A DNA stretch of 39,259 nt, taken from positions 1-39,259 of the IMG/VR virus record IMGVR_UViG_3300024520_000199. The stretch is one strand, 5' to 3'. Both the position numbers and the translations under genes were made by a program. Positions within the stretch are counted from its first letter, which is position 1. Each line of letters starts with the position of its first letter. Source of the DNA: a virus. The notes beneath the pieces were generated by a model that had not been told where the DNA came from, searched no databases, and saw nothing but the letters and a program-made list of their open reading frames with translations. Shown piece after piece: positions 2,985-39,257 of the stretch.

Positions 2985-3001
2985 CGAAAACAGAGTTTTC
3001 G
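2985..3001 (+). other. Small hairpin just after the capsid gene
   Basis: A perfect 7-bp inverted repeat (CGAAAAC / GTTTTCG) with a 3-base loop starts one base after the capsid stop codon. It lacks an immediate T-run, so it is unlikely to be a strong terminator. A 3'-end stabilising or processing hairpin for the capsid message is an inference. AT-rich stems of this length also occur by chance. Confidence 0.35.
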
Positions 3002-4891: not shown

Positions 4892-5659
4892 ATGGCTGAT
4901 GACAATGTTTTGGTAGCAGATAATCCTTACACTTTAGGACGGGGCAAAATGCTCATTCAAAAGGACACGGATCCAGCGGGAGAATGGCTTGATTTCGCCC
5001 ATGTTTTAGAAGTTAACGTAACGATTAACACTGAAACTTTGGAACACAAATCAAGCCGAAGCGGCTTGAAGATTCGAGACAAGATCATCACGACGGAGTT
5101 GACAGCGTCGGGAACTTTGATCGTTGACGTTCCGATAATTGAAAACATTAAGTTGTTTTTCATGGGTGACGGTTTTACCGACGTTTCACAAACGGGAACA
5201 ACGTTGACAGATGAAACCATTGTGGTTCATCATAATCGTTGGTCGGAGATTAGCAAACGGGCTCTTTCTGCGGTCGTTGTTACGGGTCCGGTCGGTACTC
5301 CCGTCTATGTGATCGATACGGATTACATTTTGGATGCTGAAAACGGGCTTATTGCTCCTCTCACAACCGGATCTATCGCGGACGGTGGGACGATTGAAGT
5401 TGACGCAACAGTTGCAGCGGAAACAATTTTGAAGGTTTCCGGCGGTGTCGTTCCGGATCAAAGGCGGCATGTGTGGTTTATTGGCGACGCGGCTGCAGGT
5501 ATTGACCAACAGATCAAAGGGTTTGTCAATCTTATTCCATCCGGAGATCTTTCGATGATCGGTGAGGATTGGCAACAATTTACACTTGGTTTGGAGTTCG
5601 AGTTGCATAGTCGATACTCAAGTATCATTGAGTATTACGACCTAGGTAAAGTAGCGTAA
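4892..5659 (+). CDS. Major tail tube protein
   Basis: 255 residues, ATG after AAAGGAGTTTTTAAA, one of the strongest ribosome binding sites in the window, fitting a highly expressed structural gene. N-terminal part: NPYTLGRGKMLIQK, then a beta-rich body with FAHVLEVNVTINTETLEHKS typical of tube proteins. A middle insertion (about residues 110-180, rich in Val/Thr/Asp/Gly) may be a surface Ig-like or decoration domain. The C-terminus returns to tube-like strands (QQIKGFVNLIPSGDLSMIG, then WQQFTLGLEFE). It polymerises as stacked rings around the tape measure. It is followed by a hairpin with a short T-run and then the chaperone gene, the usual order. Confidence 0.85.
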   Translation: MADDNVLVADNPYTLGRGKMLIQKDTDPAGEWLDFAHVLEVNVTINTETLEHKSSRSGLKIRDKIITTELTASGTLIVDVPIIENIKLFFMGDGFTDVSQTGTTLTDETIVVHHNRWSEISKRALSAVVVTGPVGTPVYVIDTDYILDAENGLIAPLTTGSIADGGTIEVDATVAAETILKVSGGVVPDQRRHVWFIGDAAAGIDQQIKGFVNLIPSGDLSMIGEDWQQFTLGLEFELHSRYSSIIEYYDLGKVA

Positions 5660-5671
5660 AAAAAACTGATT

Positions 5672-5700
5672 ACGGCTTGGGATTTTCCCGGGCCGTTTTC
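5672..5700 (+). terminator. Hairpin terminator/attenuator after the major tail gene
   Basis: 10-bp stem ACGGCTTGGG / CCCGGGCCGT with two G-T wobbles and a 5-base ATTTT loop, followed by TTTCTC. The T-run is short, so partial termination is likelier than a full stop. That would give more capsid and tail tube message than chaperone and tape-measure message. Genes downstream have no visible promoter of their own, so transcription must read through. Confidence 0.65.
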
Positions 5701-32628: not shown

Positions 32629-32931
32629 ATGAAAATTGAAGATAACGAAATCGCTTATCTCGTATGTTGTGAGCCAAGAGTTGTTTTATTTGGCTATGCA
32701 ACAGTGGTTGAAATCAAAAAGGCAAAACCAACGCTAAAAAATTGTCGGATGCTTGTATATTGGTCGGTCGAAACCAAAGGTGTTTTAGGAGCTGCCATTG
32801 ATGGCCCAGCGAGCGGATCAAAAATCAGCAAAGCAATCGATGAGTGGACGATTACAAAGAAAGTAGAGGGGTACGGTCCATGCAGTGAAAAAGCAGTTAA
32901 AGTCTTCGAATCTGGAATGTGGGATGAATGA
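32629..32931 (+). CDS. DUF6948-like small protein
   Basis: 100 residues, ATG after AAAGGGTGAATT. Pattern fits DUF6948 as I recall it: IAYLVCCEPRVVLFGYATVV, then LKNCRMLVYWSVE, a Gly/Ser-rich turn, and GYGPCSEKAVKVF near the end. In related phages this domain is often joined to, or followed by, Gly/Ser/Tyr/Asp repeat sequence. Here a separate repeat protein follows immediately (32928), which supports the identification. Function unknown. Confidence 0.7.
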   Translation: MKIEDNEIAYLVCCEPRVVLFGYATVVEIKKAKPTLKNCRMLVYWSVETKGVLGAAIDGPASGSKISKAIDEWTITKKVEGYGPCSEKAVKVFESGMWDE

Positions 32932-33353
32932 TCGATAAAATAAACACGCTCCGAAGATCAGGATACACGGACAGGGAAACATTTAAAGCATGTTTCCCGG
33001 GATCTATATCAAGCGAAGATCAAATTATTCTAATGCAACACCATAATCTATTGCGCTATGGAATGAATCGCGTTGATAGGGATTATCTAGCTGAGGGGTT
33101 ACGGCTTTCAAAGTCGGGTTACGGTTACGGTTACGGTGAAGGTTTCGGTTTCGGTTCAGGTTACGGTTACGGTTTCGGTTTCGGTTACGGTGAAGGTGAC
33201 GGTGACGGTTACGGTGAAGGTTACGGTGAAGGTGCCGGTTACGGTGCCGGTTACGGTGAAGGTGCCGGGGAAGATTACGGTTTTGGTTCAGGTTTCGGTT
33301 CCGGTGACGGTTTAGGGGACATAAAACTAAAAAAAGCATTCGGGGTAGAGTGA
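32928..33353 (+). CDS. Tyr/Phe-Gly repeat protein A
   Basis: 141 residues, ATG overlapping the previous stop. Residues 1-64 are a folded-looking helical domain (LRRSGYTDRETFKACFP ... QHHNLLRYGMNRVDRDYLAEGLRLSKSG). Residues 65-130 are GY/GF/GE/GS/GD/GA dipeptides, coded by GGTTnCGGT-type hexamers (33118-33312). It ends with a short DIKLKKAFGVE tail. The next gene repeats the same plan. Aromatic-Gly repeats of this type can form condensates or spacers, but no function is established here. Confidence 0.7.
   Translation: MIDKINTLRRSGYTDRETFKACFPGSISSEDQIILMQHHNLLRYGMNRVDRDYLAEGLRLSKSGYGYGYGEGFGFGSGYGYGFGFGYGEGDGDGYGEGYGEGAGYGAGYGEGAGEDYGFGSGFGSGDGLGDIKLKKAFGVE
33118..33312 (+). repeat. Imperfect GGTTnC hexamer array, copy A
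   Basis: Tandem 6-base units of GGTTAC/GGTTTC/GGTGAA/GGTGAC type, all in frame to give Gly-X dipeptides. Third-base patterns vary, so selection or slippage acts at protein or DNA level. Confidence 0.85.
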
Positions 33354-33782
33354 ATGATCGGTAAAATCAACATACTCCGAAGATCTGGATATACGGATCA
33401 AGAAATATTTAAAGTATGTTTTCCTGGGAAAGTATCCAATGAAGATCAACTTATTCTAATGCAACATCATAATCTGTTGCGTTATGGAATGGATCGCATT
33501 AACAGGGATTATCTAGCTAAGGGGTTACGGCTTTCAAAGTCGGGTTTCGGTTACGGTGAAGGTTTCGGTTTCGGTTCAGGTTACGGTTCGGGTTCCGGTT
33601 ACGGTTCAGGTTTCGGTTTCGGTTCAGGTTACGGTTCGGGTTCCGGTTACGGTTCAGGTTTCGGTTTCGGTTCCAATTACGGTTCGGGTTCCGGTTACGG
33701 TTCAGGTTTCGGTTTCGGTTCGGGTTCCGGTTACGGTTCAGGTTCAGGTGACGCAAAACTAAAACAAGCTTTTGGACACTGA
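33354..33782 (+). CDS. Tyr/Phe/Ser-Gly repeat protein B, paralogue of A
   Basis: 142 residues, ATG directly after the stop of A. Residues 1-64 differ from A at about 13 positions (roughly 80% identity by eye). The repeat is more regular: GFGFGSGYGSGSGYGS blocks recur three to four times. It ends AKLKQAFGH, matching the A tail. The higher-order repeat (about 48 bases) shows recent expansion. Tandem duplication with distinct repeat sets suggests both copies are kept. Confidence 0.7.
   Translation: MIGKINILRRSGYTDQEIFKVCFPGKVSNEDQLILMQHHNLLRYGMDRINRDYLAKGLRLSKSGFGYGEGFGFGSGYGSGSGYGSGFGFGSGYGSGSGYGSGFGFGSNYGSGSGYGSGFGFGSGSGYGSGSGDAKLKQAFGH
33544..33759 (+). repeat. Hexamer array with ~48-base higher-order unit, copy B
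   Basis: GGTTnC hexamers with GGTTCA/GGTTCG interspersed. A block of FGFGSGYGSGSGYGSG type recurs, so an expansion of about eight hexamers is visible above the basic repeat. Confidence 0.8.
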
Positions 33783-34303: not shown

Positions 34304-36476
<2,173 letters not shown>

Positions 36477-36480
<4 letters not shown>

Positions 36481-37313
36481 GTGATTTAAGAATCGGCGAT
36501 TGCACCGAAATATTAAAAACGTTGAAAGCCGAATCAATCGATCTAACAGTGACCAGCCCACCATACGATAACCTGAGAACCTACGGAGGGAACAACGACC
36601 AATGGGGTGATCACGTTTGGAAAGCGGTTATCACAGAATTGTACCGAGTAACCAAGATCGGCGGGGTTGTAGTTTGGATTGTGAATGATGCAACCATAAA
36701 GGGAAGCGAAACGGGTACAAGTTTTAGGCAAGCGTTATGGGCTAAAGAATGTGGGTTTAATTTGCATGATACTATGATTTGGGAAAAATCAACAACCCCT
36801 TTTATGACTCCAAATCGATACAGAGATAAGTTTGAATTTATGTTTATTTTTTCAAAGGGGCCACCAAAGAAAGCAAACCTTATTAGAGATCGATTAAACA
36901 AACACAAAAAAGCGGGTAGTATTAATGAGCGGTTAAAGGATGGCTCTATAAAAAGAAGGGGGGGGTTTAAGATCCAGCATCTCGGCGCAAGGTTTAATAT
37001 TTGGAAGATTAACGAGATCAAGAATAATGACACAACGCACCCGGCAATTTTCCCCTATCAACTAGCCCACGATCATATTATTTCTTGGAGTAATAAAGGC
37101 GATAAAATCTTTGATCCATTCATGGGCAGCGGGACCACCGGGATCGCTGCAAAAAGAACCGGGCGAGATTTTGTCGGAATCGAACTATCGCCAGAATATT
37201 TCGAGATCGCAAAGGCTCGAATATCAGCCGATGATCCAAAACAAGACGATAAAGGGTTATACGAAAACGTAAGGACCAAGGATGAGACATACAAGCAAAG
37301 GAGATTGTTTTGA
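36477..37313 (+). CDS. DNA methyltransferase 3 (beta-type, SPPY)
   Basis: 278 residues, TTG start overlapping the previous TGA, GAGGAGG upstream. Motif IV TSPPYDNLRTYGG at about 25-37; motif [16 protein letters not shown] at about 213-227. Shares the 86-base block with enzyme 2 (36540-36625). Its final 39 bases (37263-37301) match enzyme 1 rather than enzyme 2. The central region (WEKSTTPFMTPNRYRDKF, GGFKIQHLGARFN) is distinct, implying a different target. The stop again overlaps a TTG. Confidence 0.85.
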
Positions 37314-37753: not shown

Positions 37754-37785
37754 ACGCGGGTTTCGGCGGGAATTCGCGTTTTTTT
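37754..37785 (+). terminator. Hairpin terminator after the methyltransferase operon
   Basis: ACGCG / CGCGT stem closing a GC-rich imperfect inner stem, followed by TTTTTTT. The next TTAAG-class promoter follows about 22 bases later. Confidence 0.6.
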
Positions 37786-37807: not shown

Positions 37808-37836
37808 TTGACACGGGTTAAGAAATAGTTTAAGAT
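37808..37836 (+). promoter_or_regulatory. TTAAG-class promoter 5
   Basis: TTGACA 37808-37813, TTAAGAAATAG four bases later, 17-base spacer, TAAGAT at 37831-37836. The spacer is identical to promoter 1 after the first four bases. Confidence 0.8.
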
Positions 37837-37877
37837 TCATGCAGTTAAGTTAATCAAATCATTAAGGAGCAAAAAAA

Positions 37878-38363
37878 ATGTTTTTCAAATCACCTATAAA
37901 AAACCTTTCAGAACTTCGGGAACAATACAAAGCACTAGTAAAAAAGTTTCATCCTGATTGCGGCGGAAAAAATGAAGATATGATTTCTGTGAACAACGAA
38001 TATGAAAAACTCAGAGATCACATTTTGAAAACTGGTGAAGCTTACACCACTTGGTCAGATGAACGAAAAGACAAAGAAGTTGAAATCGATGAAACCTTAA
38101 GAGCGAAGATCGTTGAAATTATCAACTTGGTTGGCCTGAAGATAGAAATTTGCGGTTGTTGGATATGGGTTGGAGGAAACACCCGCGATAATAAAGAAGC
38201 GCTTAAAACAGCAAAATTTCGATGGAATAGCAAAAAAAAGTTGTGGTCTTGGGGCCAAAAAATGAGCAATAGCCGGGGATCCTATTCAATGGCTAATATT
38301 CGTGACGCTTACGGATCTGCAATCGTTACGAAAAAAGAAAAAGAAGTTAAGAAAATCAAGTAA
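37878..38363 (+). CDS. J-domain protein
   Basis: 161 residues, ATG behind AAGGAGCAAAAAAA. Residues ~10-50 form a J-domain: YKALVKKFHPDCGGKNEDM with HPD at 25-27, followed by a helix ending YEKLRDHI. The C-terminal part (CGCWIWVGGNTRD ... KFRWNSKKKLWSWG) is a small domain often paired with phage/ICE J-domains. J-domains recruit the host Hsp70 DnaK, usually to remodel replication proteins. First gene of the hairpin-separated module. Confidence 0.8.
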   Translation: MFFKSPIKNLSELREQYKALVKKFHPDCGGKNEDMISVNNEYEKLRDHILKTGEAYTTWSDERKDKEVEIDETLRAKIVEIINLVGLKIEICGCWIWVGGNTRDNKEALKTAKFRWNSKKKLWSWGQKMSNSRGSYSMANIRDAYGSAIVTKKEKEVKKIK

Positions 38364-38371
38364 ATCAAACC

Positions 38372-38385
38372 GGGGCGAAAGCCCC
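38372..38385 (+). other. Intercistronic GAAA hairpin 1
   Basis: GGGGC-GAAA-GCCCC, a perfect 5-bp stem with GNRA tetraloop, between the J-domain gene and the next start. No T-run. Followed by ATTTAACGGAG, the ribosome binding site of the 38406 gene. Two near-copies follow (findings). Confidence 0.8.
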
Positions 38386-38405
38386 CATTTAACGGAGTTT
38401 TTAAA

Positions 38406-38783
38406 ATGGAAATCAGCAAACTAGTAAAACGTCAAGCGTATATCATTAAATCAGAAATCAATGCAAAACTTGCAAGGAACAGCGAAACAAAAGATCTTCG
38501 AATCGGCGGAAGAATGACAATAAAAGAAACGATTCGTTCAAATCGTGATCCACGTCTAACAGTATCTTTTGATATTCATGAGATTTCTTTTGAATATTCT
38601 AAAAACGGAAATCTTGACATTTGCAATGATGCAAGAGTTGCAGGGCTAGAAATCGAAATTGAAGAAAACACAGGCAAGGCCAGTATTTCAGATTTCCATT
38701 CTACTGTTTTACGAATTCAATTAGCTGTAACCGTTCAAGAAATTTGTGAAGGTGTGATTTTTTTAGCTAGATCTGAGCTTTAA
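38406..38783 (+). CDS. Hypothetical protein
   Basis: 125 residues, ATG behind GGAGTTTTTAAA. Mixed alpha/beta, including MTIKETIRSNRDPRLTV and IEIEENTGKASISDF. No domain recognised. It lies between hairpins 1 and 2 and has its own ribosome binding site. Confidence 0.6.
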   Translation: MEISKLVKRQAYIIKSEINAKLARNSETKDLRIGGRMTIKETIRSNRDPRLTVSFDIHEISFEYSKNGNLDICNDARVAGLEIEIEENTGKASISDFHSTVLRIQLAVTVQEICEGVIFLARSEL

Positions 38784-38790
38784 TCAAACC

Positions 38791-38804
38791 GGGCCGAAAG
38801 GCCC
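38791..38804 (+). other. Intercistronic GAAA hairpin 2
   Basis: GGGCC-GAAA-GGCCC, perfect 5-bp stem with the same GAAA loop, followed by CATTTAAGGAG. It differs from hairpin 1 by compensatory base changes in the stem, which supports RNA structure. Confidence 0.8.
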
Positions 38805-38823
38805 CATTTAAGGAGCTTTTAAG

Positions 38824-39036
38824 ATGAAATATTACATGATTTTAGTTGATGTTTTTGCAAATTATGACAGTGAAGTTTTGAGCGGGATTGGTGTTAAAAT
38901 TATTACGTCTTCAACATGGTTGAACGCATGGGAAAGGGTCAAATATTTAGGGTATTCAATTGATGATGTTGCACTAAGGGAAGTCCCAAAAGGGACTAAA
39001 ATTCAAAAAAATAGAACTTTAAAATTCAAAATGTAA
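38824..39036 (+). CDS. Hypothetical protein
   Basis: 70 residues, ATG behind AAGGAGCTTTTAAG. Beta-alpha-beta layout, MILVDVFANYDSEVLSG then NAWERVKYLGYSIDDVAL, ending in a basic tail. No family recognised. Third gene of the module. Confidence 0.6.
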   Translation: MKYYMILVDVFANYDSEVLSGIGVKIITSSTWLNAWERVKYLGYSIDDVALREVPKGTKIQKNRTLKFKM

Positions 39037-39043
39037 ACGCAAC

Positions 39044-39057
39044 GGGGCGAAAGCCCC
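39044..39057 (+). other. Intercistronic GAAA hairpin 3
   Basis: GGGGC-GAAA-GCCCC again, followed by TATTAAAGAG. The stem sequence equals hairpin 1. What follows is a short, uncertain ORF and then a terminator. Confidence 0.8.
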
Positions 39058-39121
39058 TATTAAAGAGCTAGGTTGTGTGATGGGAAATGGATCCCGGCTA
39101 AATGGAAAAAAAGTTGAAAAC

Positions 39122-39145
39122 GGGCCCTTCGGGGCTTTTTTTTTA
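39122..39145 (+). terminator. UUCG-tetraloop terminator
   Basis: GGGCCC-TTCG-GGGCTT (two G-T wobbles) plus a long T-run. Closely related to the terminator at 31092. Confidence 0.85.
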
Positions 39146-39228
39146 ATTATTTTTTCACCAACAATTGAGGTTTTACAAGGGGTTGCGGCCGTTGCGTTAT
39201 TTATTTCTAGTTATTTTCTGTTTTCTTA

Positions 39229-39257
39229 TTGACACGGGTTAAGAAATAATCTATACT
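39229..39257 (+). promoter_or_regulatory. TTAAG-class promoter 6
   Basis: TTGACA 39229-39234, TTAAGAAATAA four bases later, 17-base spacer, TATACT at 39252-39257: the best sigma70 -10 box of the set. Its gene lies beyond the window. Confidence 0.85.

Follow-up and report, generated by a model that had tools for sequence, protein, structure and literature searches.

Several consecutive genes at the end of this phage DNA are separated by near-identical hairpins, which raises the question of what such a hairpin belongs to; namely, whether it marks the ribosome-binding site (RBS) of the gene that follows or the end of the gene that precedes it. The original prediction took hairpin and ribosome site together as one repeated linker. 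To the window, by which we mean the whole stretch of 39,259 nucleotides (nt) that was analysed, we added comparisons across viral contigs and bacterial and archaeal genomes.

Three hairpins in a predicted operon

The exact sequences and positions of the three GAAA hairpins were reconfirmed on the + strand, and the measured spacings place each of them shortly behind one of three consecutive stop codons, as originally described (Table 1). No other GC-only GAAA hairpin with a 5-bp stem occurs among the bases of the window, and shuffled sequence does not reproduce them: the real window has 3 copies versus a mean of 0.0125 and a maximum of 1 in 400 dinucleotide shuffles. Hairpins 1 and 2 are predicted to fold as drawn at −11.1 kcal/mol each, as is hairpin 3 at −16.2 kcal/mol (z = −3.0). 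Hairpin 3 sits within a 7-bp outer stem (39037–39043 with 39072–39078, ACGCAAC/GTTGTGT), by which a candidate start codon, the GTG at 39077, would be covered. Taken alone, hairpins 1 and 2 have modest shuffle z-scores (−1.3 and −1.5) because the composition of the linker itself favours hairpins; the case for the hairpins rests on position, repeat and comparison rather than on folding z-scores.

Linker copies 1 and 2 have the flanks AATCAAACC...CATTTAA.GGAG.TTTT in common, and copy 3 is more diverged (67% identity). Copies 1 and 2 have a single stem difference, a G–C pair that became C–G through changes on both sides and is thus compensatory. T-runs are absent behind all three stems, which continue as CATTTAAC, CATTTAAG and TATTAAAG with no U-tract, and no + strand terminator was called at any of the three sites; they are therefore not intrinsic terminators, in agreement with the original prediction. 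The terminators near the cassette differ from them in having UUCG loops and T-runs. The window had no Rfam match above the gathering score, and its tRNA scan was empty.

Table 1. Features of the cassette and further post-stop hairpins in the window.
Feature	Positions	Strand	Remarks
Hairpin CGAAAAC-AGA-GTTTTCG	2985..3001	+	Different from those of the cassette; directly behind major head protein gene 1941–2984
Hairpin ACGGCTTGGGA-TTT-TCCCGGGCCGT	5672..5696	+	Different from those of the cassette; 12 nt past major tail protein gene 4892–5659
Terminator-like hairpin with T6	37754..37779	+	Upstream boundary of transcription unit
Predicted promoter TTGACA-17-TAAGAT of the cassette	37808..37836	+	One of six TTGACAnnGnTTAAGA repeats
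ORF 1, 161 aa, DnaJ-domain-like	37878..38363	+	PHROG 15863, E = 8e-34
Linker repeat copy 1, comprising hairpin and flanks	38363..38401	+	Repeat family D7
Hairpin 1, GGGGC-GAAA-GCCCC	38372..38385	+	8 nt past ORF 1 stop
ORF 2, 125 aa	38406..38783	+	No family match
Linker repeat copy 2	38782..38820	+	85% identity to copy 1 over 39 nt
Hairpin 2, GGGCC-GAAA-GGCCC	38791..38804	+	7 nt past ORF 2 stop
ORF 3, 70 aa	38824..39036	+	No family match
Hairpin 3, GGGGC-GAAA-GCCCC	39044..39057	+	7 nt past ORF 3 stop
UUCG-loop terminator-like hairpin with T-run	39122..39137	+	Cassette end

The cassette is predicted to form one operon, from the promoter through the UUCG terminator. Behind the stop of all three of its ORFs stands a hairpin, and the ORF 1 leader (37837–37877) contains no hairpin (−0.7 kcal/mol). 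The proposed linkage to a ribosome site is only partly right here: besides the bare ORF 1 leader, copy 3 lacks a good RBS and a convincing gene, the sole frame behind it (39077–39232) crossing the terminator. A tblastn search with ORF 2 gave no match. No close relatives were found in viral contigs using the DnaJ-like protein or the primase, or in the phage collection using megablast, and conservation was therefore tested phage-wide and not at the window's own orthologous sites. The window's two further intercistronic hairpins without clear terminator character are those behind its major head and major tail protein genes.

Other repeats were observed in the window. Six exact, promoter-like copies of TTGACAnnGnTTAAGA occur on the + strand in the right arm (28591, 29127, 30715, 31123, 37808 and 39229), upstream of small transcription units; the TTAAGA conserved in their spacer may serve as the operator of a single repressor. 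Three consecutive DNA methyltransferase-type genes (34307–37313) share 300-nt blocks (repeat families D2 and D8) and are apparently tandem duplicates. The adjacent ORFs at 32928–33353 and 33354–33782 have starts that are 80% identical, with an internal 12/18-nt repeat structure (D1 and D3).

Stop codons and ribosome sites around the hairpin

We searched for the pattern GGGGCGAAAGCCCC-N2-14-GGAG-N4-12-ATG, using the same pattern with the hairpin reversed as a control. At least 120 stretches of viral contigs match, compared with 1 for the control, which supports recurrence of the hairpin in many phages; 110 matches came from 257 Gb of bacterial and archaeal sequence (84,980 genomes), and the UUCG version likewise matches at least 120 stretches. 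The element is present in very different phages, and phi92 and a Pseudotevenvirus are among the annotated phages that have it with a GAAA loop. In five loci from uncultured Pelagibacteraceae (L154, L172, L176 and L180 by title; also L226), a GAAA hairpin with an A/T-extended stem and a T8 tail precedes the RBS of one conserved gene. At three other loci (L108, L130 and L254), the same kind of post-stop linker as in the window carries a GCAA loop on the GGGGC stem.

The upstream stop codon lies outside the search pattern. Among the matches listed, 109 of 112 distinct GAAA linkers nevertheless have one within 200 nt of the hairpin, the median distance being 9 nt (quartiles 7–12). In these RBS-selected linkers, the hairpin begins 5–12 nt past the stop and leaves about 20 nt to the ATG. 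To separate the two neighbours, a sample that was not selected for an RBS was drawn using the plain 14-mer GGGGCGAAAGCCCC (n = 106 copies in viral contigs; reversed control, n = 95). Within 30 nt past the stop of an upstream ORF lie 86 of the 106 hairpins and 18 of the 95 controls, and within 5–15 nt the figures are 63 and 0; 12 hairpins are inside long ORFs, compared with 72 controls. An RBS and start close behind were found for only 31 hairpins, a number to be read with the tight packing of phage genes in mind, as stop and RBS distances are not fully independent. The constant neighbour of the hairpin is the upstream stop codon. The hairpin-plus-ribosome-site linker is thus not supported as a unit, and our initial view of a start-associated linker was dropped for the same reason.

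The onset of the stop distance is abrupt at 5 nt, with 13 hairpins at exactly 5 and none at 2–4. This would fit the distance over which a terminating ribosome extends to its helicase site, and a hairpin lying farther out would not have to be opened. The placement of the RBS-selected hairpins between two ribosome footprints, and the excess of these stretches over the control, would also suit a translational insulator that shields the next initiation site from ribosomes that terminate or slide, or from sequence farther upstream. We regard such a role as improbable, given that most copies in the non-RBS-selected sample have no RBS and start close behind, that hairpin 3 has no convincing next gene and that the leader of ORF 1 is free of hairpins.

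A T-tract (at least 6 T in the 8 positions after the stem) follows 34 of the 106 copies, 22 of which have no near RBS and start. The hairpins might accordingly be weak or decayed intrinsic terminators, at which pausing or partial termination after each gene would step the transcript level down along the operon; capsid genes are often upstream, and the T7 terminator Tphi lies just behind gene 10. Against this, a T-run, which the window's own terminators have, is missing from all three copies in the window, and T-tracts are less frequent at copies with a start in the next 60 nt (10 of 39 versus 22 of 47; P = 0.048, Fisher's test). Although we consider weak termination unlikely, the T-tracts elsewhere make partial termination a real alternative to an exonuclease barrier.

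Orthologous sites and neighbouring genes

At orthologous gene starts in other phages, the hairpin is kept while its loop changes among GAAA, UUCG and GCAA and its stem also varies. Examples are the pairs L030 (GAAA) and L084 (UUCG), 79% identical; L026 (GAAA) and L108 (GCAA), 92% identical; and L014 (GAAA) and L357 (UUCG), 82% identical; there are further loop-exchange pairs beyond these. Outside the selected matches, 47 of the 63 orthologous sites lack a strong tetraloop hairpin, mostly at lower identity, which indicates that turnover is common. Together with the compensatory pair in the window, the exchanges substantiate the original view that the structure is selected. Of that interpretation as a whole, selection, the non-terminator character and recurrence stand, and the ribosome-site linker unit does not.

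Exchange of loop and stem with pairing kept implies that the structure matters rather than a loop-specific receptor. Three near-identical copies within one operon could be sites at which a phage or host protein recognizes the GAAA tetraloop hairpin and regulates the operon; the replacement of GAAA by UUCG or GCAA at orthologous positions, and the occurrence of the element in very different phages, make this protein-binding role, which had been suggested earlier, very unlikely. Scarcely more credible is the idea that the linkers are direct repeats through which gene cassettes move by homologous recombination or duplication, the hairpin having no RNA role of its own. The 39-nt repeats on both sides of ORF 2 and the tandem duplication among neighbouring genes (D1–D3) would fit; but pairing is kept while stem and loop vary, orthologous sites included, and the post-stop placement is strand-specific, whereas plain homology would need no pairing. 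Compensatory changes in orthologous linkers whose flanks are unrelated, which would speak against recombination, have been observed in part.

Major capsid, major tail, single-stranded DNA-binding (SSB) and Hsp20 proteins are over-represented among the products of the genes in front of the hairpin; these are high-demand genes. Major head proteins account for about 15 of 100 upstream genes in the UUCG set and for 6 of the 78 from GAAA linkers, which also have about 3 major tail proteins upstream, in both cases among the matches listed, and for about 7 of 78 in the non-RBS-selected sample, in which SSB and Hsp20 proteins recur; these family counts are approximate, as one protein may match several families and the first 25 families are listed, and they come from unweighted samples that possibly include related phages. 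Downstream genes gave just one major head match among the families listed. The association with high demand is suggested by the gene families of other phages, ORFs 2 and 3 of the window being without a family match.

A possible 3′-end element and related systems

We favour the reading that the hairpins are 3′-end elements of the preceding genes, most likely barriers to 3′-to-5′ exonucleases, and give it a probability of about one half. It is favoured because stop-linked copies far outnumber those near an RBS and start; because a hairpin stands behind all three ORFs of the cassette and not in the leader of the first; because post-stop hairpins are also present at the window's genes for the major head protein and the major tail protein; because major head proteins are enriched upstream, where several SSB and Hsp20 proteins occur as well; because orthologous gene starts keep the hairpin through loop changes; and because a start close behind goes with fewer T-tracts. 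The shortness of a 5-bp stem speaks against an exonuclease barrier.

At 7–8 nt past the stop, just outside the terminating ribosome, the hairpin could stay folded during translation of the upstream gene. Once the polycistronic mRNA is cut or decays, we infer that it would block 3′-to-5′ exonucleases, which would protect the upstream message and give unequal yields for neighbouring genes on one transcript. The same hairpin with a U-tract would be a terminator, and some copies elsewhere may thus act as weak terminators as well; at the copies in the window, which have none, RNA polymerase should read on into the next gene.

More tentatively, the element may be a convergent one: a stable GNRA or UUCG tetraloop hairpin at least 5 nt past the stop, unopened by the terminating ribosome, that raises the yield of high-demand genes in operons of unrelated tailed phages. 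We hold this broader view to be possible, though somewhat less than evenly probable. If it is true, a 14-nt motif readable from sequence would flag high-yield genes of phage operons at their 3′ ends, would account for genes of one transcript being expressed unequally and would provide a compact part for operon design.

Among known systems, intrinsic terminators likewise have a GC hairpin past the stop, and some copies elsewhere carry T-tracts; unlike them, the copies in the window lie inside an operon and have no T-run. The ESAS of Cluster K mycobacteriophages (PMC3203893) are also inverted repeats that recur among phage genes, but these 17-bp imperfect repeats occur near translation starts and are tied to a 13-bp start-associated sequence, GGGATAGGAGCCC, which is absent from the three linkers; our hairpins have 5-bp stems and are tied to stop codons. 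Structures at 3′ ends block exonucleases and stabilize the upstream gene in operons (PMC5927463). As in the malE–malF and puf stem-loops (models in PMC5927463), a stable post-stop hairpin without a U-tract lies between genes inside an operon, often behind high-demand genes, with the third copy here behind the last ORF; unlike those, the present hairpins are much shorter, have a standard tetraloop and lie 7–8 nt from the stop, with a putative effect on decay.

The hairpins also resemble the CUUCGG hairpins, which are described as frequent in many phages, T4 above all, and as lying mostly between genes (Tuerk et al. 1988, cited in PMC8948821); one of these, in the leader of T4 gene 32 mRNA, stabilizes that message (PMC8948821). 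Both are very stable tetraloop hairpins that are intercistronic in the mRNA of many phages, those of the cassette lying between consecutive + strand ORFs or behind the last one. A link to a stop codon 5–12 nt upstream was measured here; no such link was found for the T4 hairpins in the literature searched, nor was a GAAA counterpart of the CUUCGG hairpins found in the open-licence papers searched. If the broader view holds, the old T4 CUUCGG observation would be widened to GNRA loops, with a defined rule for the distance to the stop. Unlike the C(UUCG)G of T4, the loops here are GAAA: the intercistronic tetraloop hairpin is a kind already known, and its GNRA-loop form is new.
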